A stretch of DNA of 64,000 bases from Gemmata massiliana. Its GTDB lineage: Bacteria > Planctomycetota > Planctomycetia > Gemmatales > Gemmataceae. The notes under the pieces were generated by a model, which was not told the DNA's origin, did not search any database, and saw only the letters and a list, made by a program, of their open reading frames with translations. The stretch spans positions 4,733,738-4,797,737 of the forward strand of contig NZ_LR593886.1 in assembly GCF_901538265.1 (NCBI RefSeq). Reading direction: 5' to 3'. This document shows, piece by piece, positions 57,344 to 62,822 of this stretch. The position numbers and the translations under genes were made by a program. Each line of letters starts with the position of its first letter. The first letter of the stretch is position 1.

Positions 57344-57961
57344 TTACTTCCGCTGGTTGTTGATGATGTTGTGGACCTTGTTGCCCTTCGCGGCGTCGAG
57401 GATCGCGGTTTCGACACCCCAGGGAACGTCTTTGTCGATGTCGAGGAGCATTTCTTTCCGCGTGGTTGTGTTGATGATGTTCTGCATTTCGGTAAAGACC
57501 TGATCCTGCGTTACCTCCTTACCTTCGATCTTGATAACCGGGCGCTCGCCGTCCATCTTCACGACCACTTTGAAGATCCGGTCTTTGATGTCCTTGAAGT
57601 CGATTTTTTGCGGCGCGCCCTTCTCGTCGGCCGTATCCGGCGGTACGTCGAGCGCGCGCTCGATTGAAGCGTAGGTAATGGTGAGGATGAAGAAGATGAG
57701 CAGCACGAGACACACGTCGATCAGCGGGTTCATGTCGAGGTGCGTGTCGTCGGCCACCTCCGGTGGGGGCGGGTCGATGTACTCGGCCGCTTCCGCGAAC
57801 GTGGGGTGAACCTCGATCGCGCGCCACGTCGCGTCGGTCGGCCCCTTCACTTCGTCGGTGGGGAGGAAGTTCCCGTCACGCAGCCCGGTGAGCACCTCTA
57901 CCGCGGTCGGTAGGGCGAGCACCTCTGGAGAACCTTCCTTGCGCACGTACCACGCGCTCAT
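57344..57961 (-). CDS. ExbD/TolR-family protein with N-terminal GYF-like domain (copy 2)
   Basis: This encodes 205 residues. Residues 1-65 (MSAWYVRKEGSPEVLALPTA, VEVLTGLRDGNFLPTDEVKG) look like a GYF_2 domain, which is not usual on ExbD. The membrane helix follows with the essential Asp in LDMNPLIDVCLVLLIFFILT (Asp of PLID). The periplasmic domain closes with MQNIINTTTRKEMLLDIDK. ExbD works with ExbB as a proton-driven motor. The ATGA overlap with the upstream exbD means translational coupling. Confidence 0.88.
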   Translation of the reverse strand: MSAWYVRKEGSPEVLALPTAVEVLTGLRDGNFLPTDEVKGPTDATWRAIEVHPTFAEAAEYIDPPPPEVADDTHLDMNPLIDVCLVLLIFFILTITYASIERALDVPPDTADEKGAPQKIDFKDIKDRIFKVVVKMDGERPVIKIEGKEVTQDQVFTEMQNIINTTTRKEMLLDIDKDVPWGVETAILDAAKGNKVHNIINNQRK

Positions 57962-58737
57962 TTTTCGGGTGCCTCAACGACGGTTGCGACGGTGGAGTTG
58001 ATGATGCCCTTTTTGCGCAGCGGTTCGAGTTCGCGCCGCAACTCGTAGACGCGCTCGCGCGGCAGATCCTTGCGGCACGCGATGCGCACCTCGGGGGGGC
58101 GCGTGACGCCGATGAGAACCTCGTTCAGTGCCTTGAGTGCCTCTTCCGGGGTGCGTAACTGGTCGTGGCTCGGTTTAGGGGCCACGTTGCCGACGCGAAC
58201 CGCGTAGTACACGTCCTCGGTGTTGAGTTTCTCGATGGTGATGGTGACCGCGTCCGGGTCACTGGTGAGTTGGCCCGCGTACTTCATTTCCGGGACATCT
58301 ACGGGGGCGAGCGCGCCGGCCGCCTGGATCATGATGAAGAAGACGAGAAGCACCATGCTGATGTCGATGAGCGGGATCATGTCGACTTCGTCATCGTCTT
58401 CCGGTCGCCGGATACGCTCTCCCGGCTCCGGGTCCGGGAGTTCGACCGGGGCGGGTTCTGCGGGTAGTGCGCTCGCGGGTGCTTGCTCGTCCGCGTCGGG
58501 GATCGCGAGCGGAGCAGGAGCGGCGGTCGCGGGGGACGGGCGCGCGAGGTAGTCGGCGAGCAGGTCGTAATCGCTGATCGCGACCCACGCCGTCGTGGTG
58601 CCGGCCGGGCGCACCTTGTCGGTACGCGAGAGCCGGCCCTGTTGTGTCCAGTCGGCGACGACGTTGTACGGCACGGCCTTGTAGACCGTGTTCGCGGCGA
58701 CGAACCACACGTCGAACGCCTTCGGAATCGCGGCCAT
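57958..58737 (-). CDS. ExbD/TolR-family protein with N-terminal GYF-like domain (copy 1)
   Basis: This encodes 259 residues from ATG 58737 (TTG 58752 is the longer option). The N-terminal ~70 residues (FDVWFVAANTVYKAVPYNVV, ADWTQQGRLSRTDKVRPAGT) again resemble GYF_2. A Pro/Ala linker leads to the membrane segment DMIPLIDISMVLLVFFIM with the essential Asp, then a periplasmic domain (TITIEKLNTEDVYYAVRVGN). It overlaps the second exbD by ATGA. The two ExbD proteins probably form a heteromeric unit with the ExbB-like protein upstream. Confidence 0.88.
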   Translation of the reverse strand: MAAIPKAFDVWFVAANTVYKAVPYNVVADWTQQGRLSRTDKVRPAGTTTAWVAISDYDLLADYLARPSPATAAPAPLAIPDADEQAPASALPAEPAPVELPDPEPGERIRRPEDDDEVDMIPLIDISMVLLVFFIMIQAAGALAPVDVPEMKYAGQLTSDPDAVTITIEKLNTEDVYYAVRVGNVAPKPSHDQLRTPEEALKALNEVLIGVTRPPEVRIACRKDLPRERVYELRRELEPLRKKGIINSTVATVVEAPEK

Positions 58738-58865: not shown

Positions 58866-59594
58866 TCAATCTGCGCGTGCTTTGCGCTTCCGGCGGGCGC
58901 GGTCGTCTTCGTCCTCGTCCTCCGCGTCTTCTTTCTCGGGCTGGTCGAGCAGCTTCGGGTCTTTCTTGTAGTTGGTGACGAGTGTGATGAGCTTCTGCGA
59001 CGAGGCTTTTACGCGGATCTCGAACTTCGCGATCCAGTCCTTGAACAGCACGTGGCTGAACACGAGCGGGATCGCGGTGAACAGCCCGAGCGCGGTCGCA
59101 AACAGCGCGAGGCCGATCTTGGAGGCGTGCCCGCCGATCTCCTTCGCCTTTCCGCTGGACGCGCCCTCACCGATCGCATTGAACGTGTTAATCATCGAGA
59201 TGACGGTGAAGAACAGCCCCACCATCGTTGCGATCTTCGCGATCGCGAGAATCGGCGCGAGTAGGAAGTGGAGCCGCGGGACGATTTCCAGTTCGTTTTC
59301 GTTCGCCATGCTCCGACGCATAGCCGCTGCGCCCTGGTCAGAGGCTTCCAGACCGGCAATGAACAAGCGGCTCGGGATCAGCCCCTTTTCTTCTCTGCAC
59401 AAACTCACCGCAGCCTTGACGCCGCCCTTTCGCAGCGTCTGCTGGAACAGCGGCAGGAAGTCGTCCATGTCCGTGTTCGCGGTGTTGTTCAGCAGCAGGC
59501 GCCAGATGACCAGCGCCGCTGCGATCAGCGACATGATCACGAGCGGGATGGAGAAGTACCACTCTTTGATGAAGAAATCGTAAACCGCGTTCAT
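58866..59594 (-). CDS. ExbB/TolQ/MotA-family proton channel protein
   Basis: This encodes 242 residues. Three membrane segments are visible: WYFSIPLVIMSLIAAALVIW at the N-terminus, LAPILAIAKIATMVGLFFTV, and IGLALFATALGLFTAIPLVF. These match the ExbB/TolQ fold, whose polar residues in the last two helices conduct protons. The C-terminus is long, acidic then basic (EKEDAEDEDEDDRARRKRKA). With the two ExbD genes downstream it forms a motor energising transport or envelope processes. Which partner it drives is not readable; no TonB-like gene is near. Confidence 0.9.
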   Translation of the reverse strand: MNAVYDFFIKEWYFSIPLVIMSLIAAALVIWRLLLNNTANTDMDDFLPLFQQTLRKGGVKAAVSLCREEKGLIPSRLFIAGLEASDQGAAAMRRSMANENELEIVPRLHFLLAPILAIAKIATMVGLFFTVISMINTFNAIGEGASSGKAKEIGGHASKIGLALFATALGLFTAIPLVFSHVLFKDWIAKFEIRVKASSQKLITLVTNYKKDPKLLDQPEKEDAEDEDEDDRARRKRKARAD

Positions 59595-59760: not shown

Positions 59761-61905
59761 TTACTCGTCTTCAACGTCCTTGAGCTGTGCCCGACTCACG
59801 ATCTGCTGTTGCACGTTCGCGGGCACCATTTCGTAGTGGCTCAGTTCCATTGCGTATGACCCCTGACCCTGGGTCATGCCGCCCAGTTGCGCCGCATACC
59901 GGGCCACCTCGGAGAGCGGCGCCCGCGCGTAAATGACGGTCATGTCACCGGGCAGACTGTCCTGGTTCTCGACGTGTGCCCGCTTTGTTGGTAGGTCGCC
60001 CAGTACGGCTCCGGTGTATTTGGTCGGGACCGTGATTTCGAGTTTCACGATCGGTTCGAGCAGCGACGGCCGGGCGGTCATGAACGCCTTCTTGAAGGCG
60101 TGGCGCGCGGCCGTCTTGAACGCGGCTTCCGACGAGTCCACGTCGTGGTACTTACCGAAGTGGACCTCCACGGCGCAGTCCTGGATGCGGTACCCGGCCA
60201 GCACCCCGCGCTCCAGCATCTCCTTGCACCCCTTCTCGATCGCGGGGAGGAAGTTGTTCGGGATCGATCCGCCGACGGTGTGGTCGATGAACGCGAAGTT
60301 GAACACGGGGTCGTAGTGGACGCTCCGGAGCTTCTCGAACCGGCTCTTGTTCGCGAACTCGGTCTCGCACTGGGCTTGGTCCTTGATCTCGCGCGCCAGC
60401 GGGTAGATGCGCATGTGGACCTCGGCGAACTGCCCGCGTCCGCCGGTCTGCTTCTTGTGCTTGTGATCTCCCGCCCCGTCGCCGTTGATCGTCTCGCGGT
60501 ACGGGATCTTGGGATCCTTCGCGTTCACCTCGACGCCGAACCGGGCCTTGAGGCGCTCGCGGATGATGTCCAGGTGCAGTTGGCTCACGCCGCTGATGAC
60601 GAGTTCGTGCGTCTGGGCGTCGTGCGTGACCTTTACGGTCGGGTCTTCGGCCGCGAGTTTGTGCAGCCCGACGGAAATCTTCTGCTCGTCCCCGCGCGTC
60701 TTAGGTTCGATCGCCAGCCCGAACATCGGCGTGGGGAAGTGCGGGAGCGGGATCTTCGGCGCGTGGTTCGTGTACGCGATCGTGTCGCCAATCTCCAGTC
60801 CCTCGACTTTGGCGATGGCGACAATGTCGCCCGGCCCGGCCTCGTGAACCTGCGTGGTCGTTTTGCCCTGGGCTTCGAGCAGGTGCCCGACGCGGAGCGT
60901 TTGTCCGCTGCGCAGGTTCACGACGTTGTGGTTGTGCTGGAGCTTTCCGGCGAGCACGCGGACGAAACTCAGGTGCCCGACGAACTTGTCGTTAACCACC
61001 TTGAACACCTGTGCGACGAACTCTTCCTGCTCGGTCGGTTCGAGCTGGTGTGCGGACCCGTTCGACCCGACCTGCAACCCTTCGAGGCGCTTACGCGAGA
61101 ACGCCGGCGAGAGTCCGTAGCGGCTGAGCGCGTCGAGCAGCTCCTTGACGCCCTTGTCCTTCTTCGCGGACGCGCAGAAGATCGGAATCAGCGTGCCCGT
61201 GTCCATCGCCCGGGTGATGTCGGCCTCCAGTTCCGCCAGCGTGACCTTACCCTCGCTCAAATACTTTTCGAGCAGCGCTTCATCAGACTCGACGACCGCT
61301 TCGATGAGCTGGCTCCGGGCTGAACCGGCATCGACCGGCAGGGACGGCGGGAGGATTTGCCGCGGGTCGAGTAGACAGTAGATCTCGCGCATTCCGGGAC
61401 CGGTCCGGTCCGGCACGTTGAACAGCACGCAGTTCTTCCCGAACGCGGCCTGGATGGTATCGACCAGCCCGGGCAAATCGACGTTGTCGGCGTCGAGCTT
61501 GTTGATGACGATCGCCCGCGACAGGCCCAGCGTGGTCGCTTCCTGGAACATCTTCCGCGTGTTCATCTCCACGCCGTTAACGGCCGAGATGACGATCACT
61601 GCCGTTTCAACGGCCGCGAGCGCTTCGAGCGCGGCGCCGATGAAGTCCGGTGAGCCGGGGGCGTCCAGGATGTTGAGGTGTTTGCCGTCGTGATCGGCGT
61701 GGAGGACGTGGGTGTCGATGGAGAAGTGGTGCTTGTGTTCTTCGTCGTCGGCGTCCGCGACCGATGTCCCGTCGTCCACGCTCCCGAGTCGGTCGACCGC
61801 GTGGGCGTCGAAGAGGAGGGCATCGGCCAGGCTGGACTTGCCCGCGGCGCGGTGCCCGACGAGTGCAATGTCCCTTACGTTTTCCACCACATGTTTTACG
61901 GCCAT
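59761..61905 (-). CDS. Elongation factor G paralogue (EF-G family)
   Basis: This encodes 714 residues. The GTPase motifs are GHRAAGKSSL (G1, about 17-26), DAPGSPDFIGAAL (G3) and INKLDADN (G4). The G2 region and domains II-V follow (LSFVRVLAGKLQHNHNVVNL; RGQFAEVHMRIYPLARE; PNNFLPAIEKGCKEMLERGV). It differs from the housekeeping FusA in its G1 text (normally HIDAGKTT) and is one of the EF-G-like paralogues found in planctomycetes. Ribosomal translocation or recycling is likely, but the exact step is not shown. hisA lies 56 bases upstream. Confidence 0.9.
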   Translation of the reverse strand: MAVKHVVENVRDIALVGHRAAGKSSLADALLFDAHAVDRLGSVDDGTSVADADDEEHKHHFSIDTHVLHADHDGKHLNILDAPGSPDFIGAALEALAAVETAVIVISAVNGVEMNTRKMFQEATTLGLSRAIVINKLDADNVDLPGLVDTIQAAFGKNCVLFNVPDRTGPGMREIYCLLDPRQILPPSLPVDAGSARSQLIEAVVESDEALLEKYLSEGKVTLAELEADITRAMDTGTLIPIFCASAKKDKGVKELLDALSRYGLSPAFSRKRLEGLQVGSNGSAHQLEPTEQEEFVAQVFKVVNDKFVGHLSFVRVLAGKLQHNHNVVNLRSGQTLRVGHLLEAQGKTTTQVHEAGPGDIVAIAKVEGLEIGDTIAYTNHAPKIPLPHFPTPMFGLAIEPKTRGDEQKISVGLHKLAAEDPTVKVTHDAQTHELVISGVSQLHLDIIRERLKARFGVEVNAKDPKIPYRETINGDGAGDHKHKKQTGGRGQFAEVHMRIYPLAREIKDQAQCETEFANKSRFEKLRSVHYDPVFNFAFIDHTVGGSIPNNFLPAIEKGCKEMLERGVLAGYRIQDCAVEVHFGKYHDVDSSEAAFKTAARHAFKKAFMTARPSLLEPIVKLEITVPTKYTGAVLGDLPTKRAHVENQDSLPGDMTVIYARAPLSEVARYAAQLGGMTQGQGSYAMELSHYEMVPANVQQQIVSRAQLKDVEDE

Positions 61906-61961: not shown

Positions 61962-62684
61962 CTACTGAGGTGGCCGCGTCAGTGCGAGTGCGGCTGCGAG
62001 GTCCAGACTCCCTTCGTAAAGTGCGCGGCCGATAATGCAGCCCGGAATCCCTTCGTCAATCAGTCGGCGCACGTGATCGAGGGTACAAACGCCTCCACTG
62101 GCGATAACGGGGAGCGGAACCGCGGCCTTCATCTCCGCGAGTCCGGTAAAGTTCGGGCCGCTCATCATCCCGTCTTTCGCGATGTCCGTGTAAACGAGCG
62201 CGGCGAGCGGCGAATCACTGACCTGCTTCGCGAGATCGACGGCTTTGACCTGGGAAACTTCGAGCCACCCCTCGGTCGCGACGAACCCGTTTTTCGCGTC
62301 CACGCCCAGCACGATGTGATCCGGGTATCGCTTGGCGACCGTGCGGGTCCAGTCCGGGGACTGAAGTGCTTTGGTGCCGAGCACGGCCCACCGCACGCCC
62401 CACCCGAAGACGGTTTCGAGGTCGGCGTCGGTACGTAACCCGCCCCCGAGTTGGACCGGAACCCCCGCGGCCTCGACGATCGCACGAATAACGGCGCCGT
62501 TGATGGGCTTACCGGCTTTTGCGCCGTCGAGGTCGACAACGTGGATGCGATCGGCGCCGAGTTCGACCCACCGCCGCGCGACCGCGGCGGGGTCGTCCGA
62601 GAACTCGGTCTTTTGCGAGTAATCGCCCTGCTTCAACCGCACGGCGCGGCCGTTAAGGAGATCAATTGCCGGGTAGATGAACAT
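61962..62684 (-). CDS. hisA: 1-(5-phosphoribosyl)-5-[(5-phosphoribosylamino)methylideneamino]imidazole-4-carboxamide isomerase
   Basis: This encodes 240 residues from ATG 62684. HisA catalyses the ProFAR to PRFAR isomerisation, the fourth step of histidine synthesis, as a (beta/alpha)8 barrel. The catalytic Asp residues are in YPAIDLLNGRAVRLKQGDY (Asp8) and LVYTDIAKDGMMSG. The phosphate loops are VPVQLGGGLRTDADLE and VIASGGVCTLDHVRRL. The length is typical. The ATG at 62684 is preferred because the family begins MxIYPAIDL; nine extra codons upstream have no homology. Confidence 0.95.
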   Translation of the reverse strand: MFIYPAIDLLNGRAVRLKQGDYSQKTEFSDDPAAVARRWVELGADRIHVVDLDGAKAGKPINGAVIRAIVEAAGVPVQLGGGLRTDADLETVFGWGVRWAVLGTKALQSPDWTRTVAKRYPDHIVLGVDAKNGFVATEGWLEVSQVKAVDLAKQVSDSPLAALVYTDIAKDGMMSGPNFTGLAEMKAAVPLPVIASGGVCTLDHVRRLIDEGIPGCIIGRALYEGSLDLAAALALTRPPQ

Positions 62685-62822
62685 GAATCGGTCCTTACAC
62701 TCCGTGGTCATTCTTCACGGAGCGCGCGAGGAAAGCAAGGGAATTGAAGGAATCGTGAAGGACGAAGTCGGTCACAGTTTTGGCAAGATCAAAGAAATCG
62801 TGGGGATCGGCCACCAAAAAGC

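Follow-up and report, generated by a model that had tools for sequence, protein, structure and literature searches.

Divergent GYF-family heads on both ExbD subunits of a Gemmata motor operon, and a candidate membrane partner

Both ExbD paralogues of a three-gene operon in Gemmata massiliana carry, ahead of the membrane helix, a conserved N-terminal head that by computed remote kinship and predicted GYF-type fold is a divergent GYF-family domain. The operon would encode a proton-driven ExbB-ExbD1-ExbD2 motor, and each head, judged by the N-in topology of ExbD proteins, is expected to face the cytoplasm. The genes and their parts have the following positions in the window, i.e. the whole stretch of 64,000 nucleotides that was analysed:

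58866..59594, minus strand: ExbB/TolQ-like subunit, first gene of the trio (242 residues)
57958..58737, minus strand: ExbD1, whole gene (259 residues)
58543..58737, minus strand: GYF-like head of ExbD1, residues 1-65, core at about 7-62
58393..58542, minus strand: proline-rich linker of ExbD1, about residues 66-115
58303..58383, minus strand: membrane helix of ExbD1 with the invariant Asp125 (DMIPLIDIS), from the alignment, span set by eye
57344..57961, minus strand: ExbD2, whole gene (205 residues), overlapping ExbD1 by 4 bases
57779..57961, minus strand: GYF-like head of ExbD2, residues 1-61
57671..57736, minus strand: membrane helix of ExbD2 with the invariant Asp82 (DMNPLIDV), from the alignment, span set by eye

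ExbD1 lies downstream of ExbB after a gap of 128 bases. Pfam analysis assigned ExbB to MotA_ExbB (PF01618; 62.4 bits, cut-off 22.9) and both ExbD1 and ExbD2 to ExbD (PF02472; 34.4 and 52.8 bits, respectively, cut-off 25.4), with no further family in the trio at E ≤ 1. The ExbD match comprises residues 113-232 of ExbD1 and 73-199 of ExbD2; thus, a long N-terminal segment precedes the membrane helix in both. The membrane aspartates were invariant in alignments of 39 ExbD1 (D125) and 41 ExbD2 (D82) sequences. In this aspartate, in the ExbD domain and in the position of the gene beside ExbB, the two proteins resemble the ExbD/TolR subunits (PF02472) of TonB and Tol-Pal systems; they differ by the extra folded N-terminal domain and by scores far under the NCBIfam equivalog cut-offs for ExbD of TonB and for TolR (best 34.9 versus 127.3). 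In a neighbour survey of 65 loci (64 relatives and the window), gene picking placed a member of this ExbB family just upstream in 50, several loci ending at contig ends. Promoter and terminator scans yielded nothing useful. Genes with Pfam matches of the EF-G (59761-61905) and HisA type (61962-62711) are located upstream of ExbB in the window. The same genome contains a second ExbB-ExbD-ExbD locus (L356:5491-10973; G000:C1, about 10129.5-10135 kb); for its ExbD genes (10130464 and 10131033) Pfam gave ExbD alone, and the head profiles found no match in them. A protein encoded downstream of that locus exhibits, by eye, an S-x3-H motif, and one region of it resembles squalene-hopene cyclase below threshold.

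The first-pass annotation had assigned a GYF_2-like segment of 65-70 residues to both ExbD copies. Its identity was borne out by the Pfam matches of relatives, by profile comparison and by AlphaFold models; its length was corrected to about 55-62 residues, the linker being extra. The Pfam search for GYF_2 (PF14237) gave a divided answer: neither window protein matched at E ≤ 1, so that the assignment rests on the relatives, among which GYF_2 was the commonest weak match. Heads more than 90% alike were merged, giving 57 ExbD1 and 60 ExbD2 heads for alignment; an ExbD1 fragment at a contig end (L057) and a broken ExbD2 with an internal TAG (L105) were dropped before counting. When each head was scanned singly against 24,736 Pfam models, GYF_2 was the top weak family for 15/57 ExbD1 heads (best E 0.0011; next family 5/57) and for 14/60 ExbD2 heads (best E 0.00015; next family 1/60). 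HH alignment to a profile of 29 Gemmataceae GYF_2 domains gave probabilities of 83% for the ExbD1 head and 90% for the ExbD2 head; five of the 34 loci considered for this profile were omitted, as they were clipped and a different stretch stood where the domain is normally read. In the controls, the score of each head exceeded those of all 200 column shuffles and of the reversed profile. A plain HMM of the same 29 domains recovered none of the 66 ExbD1 and 67 ExbD2 heads at E ≤ 0.001, and only two and four, respectively, at E ≤ 0.05, indicating that the kinship of the heads to GYF_2 is remote. In the D1 versus D2 comparison, the two head families aligned with an HH probability of 96%, and at E ≤ 0.05 the ExbD2-head model found 35/66 ExbD1 heads and the ExbD1-head model 51/67 ExbD2 heads. 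When the head profiles were run against PDB sequences, the matches did not rise above chance (best E 0.94 and 0.52). GYF_2 domains above the Pfam cut-off are present in 89 of 95 Gemmataceae genomes; the window heads are alike to GYF_2/DUF4339 (PF14237) in profile and fold and differ in lying below Pfam detection. An ExbD from a non-Gemmatales planctomycete family (L209) passed both cut-offs, with 29.1 bits for GYF_2 (cut-off 25.8) and 106.1 bits for ExbD. At the sequence level this protein is the cleanest single proof of a GYF-ExbD fusion, and the architecture may therefore well be listed in domain databases.

Structure prediction of the N-terminal segment, proposed in the first-pass annotation, gave confident models whose best structural matches were GYF domains. 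AlphaFold pLDDT values were 87.7 for the ExbD1 head and 89.6 for the ExbD2 head, with a predicted core of strand-strand-helix-strand. The best 13 Foldseek rows for the ExbD1 head were GYF domains (Smy2, GltJ, GIGYF1/2 and an Arabidopsis protein) and TOC-TIC chains (E 0.013-0.27); the best 11 rows for the ExbD2 head were of the same kinds plus a U5-52kD complex chain (E 0.11-0.64). VIA-align gave Z values of 4.7-6.2 for the GYF and TOC-TIC rows of the ExbD1 head, the next unrelated row being at 2.6, and of 3.7-6.5 for the GYF, U5-52kD-complex and TOC-TIC rows of the ExbD2 head, with the next row at 3.6 (tied with the last GYF row). Z values below 8 alone prove little, and the case for GYF thus depends on the agreement between fold and sequence. 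Disorder or chance as the origin of the segment was rejected on the basis of the head alignments, the confident models and the HH shuffles; the head is, moreover, conserved in orthologues.

The classical definition of GYF domains includes the G-Y-F tripeptide, which is absent from the 57 ExbD1 and 60 ExbD2 heads aligned. At its place ExbD1 mostly has G-R-L (G34 in 52/57, R/K35 in 57/57, L36 in 46/57), and ExbD2 mostly G-x-W/F (G30 in 59/60, W/F32 in 51/60). The tripeptide loss would fit a GYF fold retained for a structural part, either as a spacer or as a dimerisation element between ExbD1 and ExbD2, that has lost peptide binding. Such a reading also accords with the ExbD2 head, in which the helix tryptophan is missing and the conserved residues W4, R7, W46 and H52-P53 suggest a different surface (aromatic residues at 4 and 46 in 60/60 each; H in 56/60 and P in 57/60). 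We nevertheless consider it unlikely, as the aromatic residues of ExbD1 at positions 11 (57/57), 24 (54/57) and 30 (57/57) are nearly invariant, and position 30 is again W (four) or Y (one) in five aligned non-Gemmatales heads. Position 51 of ExbD1 is likewise aromatic in 57/57. A tryptophan four residues before the helix-end glycine is present in 56/57 ExbD1 heads and in 0/29 Gemmataceae GYF_2 domains, a difference between the two groups. By comparison with CD2BP2, W30 of ExbD1 would correspond to the ligand-binding helix tryptophan, which makes positions 11, 24 and 30 candidates for a putative aromatic proline-binding pocket; the ExbD2 head may have another binding mode or none.

Conservation of the fusion across planctomycetes, as raised in the first-pass annotation, holds for Gemmatales and a few other families; extended to the whole phylum, the statement is too broad. 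Among 95 Gemmataceae genomes, ExbD1 was found in 67 and ExbD2 in 69, and the head was present in 66/66 full-length ExbD1 and 67/67 full-length ExbD2 orthologues, as scored with models from the same families. The ExbD1 profile matched in 74 of 102 Gemmatales genomes, in 73 as a single match from head to membrane; in G091 it was split over two contigs, and the matches in G038 and G039 each contained one TAG inside the matched stretch. A general planctomycete trait was rejected: among the matches listed, those starting in the head came from six sampled non-Gemmatales genomes (G160 and G177 of family f55; G118, G142 and G451 of f29; G135 of f42). The phylum was sampled with 342 and then 392 genomes, the query profile for the latter being built from five of the six found, and G451 was the only addition of the larger search. 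The head from G135 (L223) was matched neither by three head profiles nor by Pfam GYF_2; it was counted because it aligns with the other four and is the least certain of the set.

Inspection of 29 non-Gemmatales loci (L205-L233) revealed five GYF-like heads, 22 zinc ribbons and two loci with neither (L220 and L229). The zinc-ribbon heads were recognized by eye as CxxC...CxxC on ExbD, Pfam zinc-ribbon scores being below cut-off in the four scanned. The ExbDs of the phylum thus carry alternative N-terminal heads, with GYF as the choice of Gemmatales. Zinc-ribbon ExbDs with a linker occur across L207-L233, further examples being L349:5878-6630 and L350:5786-7051, and in L220 (G364) the ExbD-type match shares an open frame with a sequence that is protein-kinase-like by eye. 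In L349 and L350, both from zinc-ribbon lineages, the gene order is F2 homologue (F2 being the membrane protein family treated below), ExbB, ExbD, zinc-ribbon ExbD and a further gene; in L349 this last gene encodes an FHA-domain protein. In four non-Gemmatales loci with GYF-headed ExbDs (L343, L344, L345 and L347), the gene of a vWA protein, each with S-x3-H by eye, adjoins ExbB; no such neighbour was seen in the short contig of L346.

The alternation of head types bears on a possible role in recruiting or sensing a soluble partner in the cytoplasm such as a regulator, a GTPase or a cytoskeletal element, as is said of GltJ in Myxococcus gliding. The structures that match best include the GYF domain of GltJ (7z3c), the zinc ribbon of the 22/29 other planctomycete loci is the other domain type of GltJ (7zok), and the FHA protein follows the zinc-ribbon operon in L349. 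Set against this, none of the soluble neighbours recurs throughout the Gemmatales loci: the families met most often in the 65 loci were EF-G-like (19), HisA-like (17), Hsp70 (13), kinase/WD40 (11) and DUF1501 (10), and simple synteny may account for the presence of all of these near the motor. We rate a soluble partner as a serious though somewhat unlikely explanation.

The linkers would offer a ligand closer at hand. Those of ExbD1 comprise about 50 residues and are proline-rich (14.6% Pro over 66 proteins, by eye highest in Gemmata), and PP occurs in 46/67 ExbD2 linkers; accordingly, the heads might bind the proline-rich linkers of the ExbDs themselves, within one chain or between the partners of the dimer, and so serve as a clamp for autoinhibition or assembly. 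This appears improbable, given that PP is found in just 17/66 ExbD1 linkers, that many of these outside Gemmata carry an EALEPVEL-like motif instead (e.g. L077, L080 and L083), and that the ExbD2 linker is short (18 residues, 15-21 across orthologues).

A candidate partner was found in F2, an undescribed family of single-pass membrane proteins. Its member in this genome (G000:C1:1227230-1228225; L272, L348) is encoded outside the window, directly follows an Hsp70 gene and is not adjacent to the motor. An Hsp70-type gene is also found near the motor in 13/65 loci. F2 proteins of about 340 residues consist of an N-terminal tail, one helix, a glycine-rich stretch and a last domain of no known family. 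The tail of the G. massiliana protein is proline-rich; it starts with MPAPQPTTPP, contains EGPPDEEFWERYN and ends with EGPPDEEFWERYNRRLEFP. Motifs were counted in 36 distinct Gemmatales proteins, out of 80 F2-bearing genomes, and the tails of 19 loci were read by eye. An aromatic motif before the helix was present in a loose form ([FLVW]W..[YFH][SN] or FE/FD-KYN) in 35/36 tails and in the strict form FW..Y[SN] in 23/36; PP occurred in 24/36 tails and was missing in 12/36. The F2 homologues in the motor operons of L349 and L350 have, by eye, a tail of the type PVMRxTxYD and a helix without histidine.

The layout of F2, with a short tail, one helix, a glycine-rich stretch and a further domain, would be that of a TonB/TolA-type transducer. 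According to PMC12204202, TonB and TolA bind their motors via a full Ser-His-Leu-Ser motif. In the F2 membrane helices the full motif was found in 0/36, S/T/A-x3-H in 30/36, S/T/A-x3-H-x6-L in 20/36 and strict S-x3-H in 11/36. With the full motif absent and the strict form in a minority, layout and partial motif suggest a transducer only weakly. The G. massiliana F2 matched no Pfam family at E ≤ 0.1, hence no TonB or TolA C-terminal domain, and F2 was accordingly not filed as TonB or TolA. Five relatives gave merely matches with E values of 0.07-0.18 to unrelated families, no convincing match to Pfam or NCBIfam was obtained for the proteins scanned, and an F2 profile searched against the PDB mostly matched through the glycine-rich stretch.

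F2 was detected in 80 of 102 Gemmatales genomes and lies, convergent and just after ExbD2, in 22/65 loci. ExbD1 and F2 occurred together in 72 of the 102 genomes, ExbD1 only in two, F2 only in eight and neither in 20 (Fisher p 7e-13, a statistic that ignores kinship). Restricted to genomes of at least 90% completeness, the numbers were 62, 0, three and eight, respectively (Fisher p 1e-8, kinship again ignored). The two genomes with ExbD1 only are G003 (75% complete) and G436 (87%). Those with F2 only (G007, G027, G029, G030, G034, G047, G050 and G059), three of them at least 90% complete, suggest that a genome can retain F2 when no GYF-headed ExbD1 is detected in it. Within genus g28, G063 and G065 have both genes, and G060, G061, G062, G064 and G066 (74-94% complete) have neither; in G061 an ExbD2-like stretch remains, interrupted by a TAG. 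An apparent association between loss of the ExbD1 aromatic residue at position 24 and loss of PP from the F2 tail (0/3 versus 24/33, p 0.03) was set aside, as it came from two unmatched lists and one clade.

On these grounds we tentatively propose, as the favoured reading, that the ExbD heads dock the N-terminal tail of F2, a putative interaction that we hold to be possible rather than probable and that is mostly inferred. The heads would act as peptide-docking modules on a presumed ExbD1-ExbD2 heterodimer, the F2 tail would be their likeliest ligand, and docking may hold F2 at the motor or license it there, which would make regulation conceivable. Computed support comes from the fold, the remote kinship, the conservation in both paralogues, the co-occurrence and adjacency of F2 and the aromatic motif at the tail end. 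Several observations speak against docking. Besides the F2 tails without PP, the weak transducer motif, the genomes with F2 only, the distance between F2 and the motor in this genome, the missing helix tryptophan of ExbD2 and the absent tripeptide, head and tail types track clades, and their match may represent one event. Further, in the five non-Gemmatales GYF-headed systems read, four had a vWA gene beside ExbB, not F2, and just one tail (L347) contained a PPG.

The first-pass annotation had called the suggested cytoplasmic recruitment or regulation not known for TonB/Tol systems. In support, no paper on a GYF domain with ExbD or TolR was found in the literature searched; the claim is narrowed by GltJ of Myxococcus, associated with a TolQR-like motor, which has a solved GYF domain (7z3c) and zinc ribbon (7zok). 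A literature search, in which most subscription papers lay outside the searched body, gave no co-mention of a GYF domain with ExbD or TolR, and none for DUF4339 with planctomycetes, GltJ with GYF, or zinc ribbon with ExbD and planctomycetes. In the passages covered, PMC12505986, on motor diversity, does not mention GYF; PMC12204202 has 0 occurrences of the term. GltJ (AgmX) of Myxococcus xanthus is the closest precedent, with both domain types in one protein; the domains sit on GltJ in the gliding machine and on the motor's own TolR-like subunits in planctomycetes. The cytosolic domains of GltJ are said to recruit or sense a soluble partner in Myxococcus gliding. The AglRQS motor comprises AglR, of the MotA/TolQ/ExbB type, and two ExbD/TolR proteins, AglQ and AglS (PMC3169522). 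In PVC bacteria, force transducers with vWA domains are encoded beside TolQ and a pair of TolR-like genes (PMC12204202). Paired heterologous TolR-like genes and a single-pass protein, in F2 a putative transducer, are shared with the Gemmatales systems; F2 differs in having no vWA or other convincing Pfam match in the proteins scanned and in lacking the full Ser-His-Leu-Ser motif. Within the literature searched, the parts are known, and GYF heads on both ExbDs together with a candidate partner are apparently undescribed.

In the usual picture, ExbBD, TolQR and related motors work through the membrane and periplasm. A conserved domain from a class that binds peptides, expected to lie on the cytoplasmic face of both ExbDs, offers a handle on whether such motors are recruited or switched from inside the cell. 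The findings also connect the motors of planctomycetes with domains known from a gliding machine and name an undescribed candidate partner family. More generally, the force motors of Planctomycetota might be gated from the cytoplasm, exchangeable ExbD heads (GYF or zinc ribbon) reading matching transducer tails; we regard this as speculative and rather unlikely. If it were true, coupling between ExbBD and its transducer would be a switchable step under cytoplasmic control, using the same head types as are found on Myxococcus GltJ.
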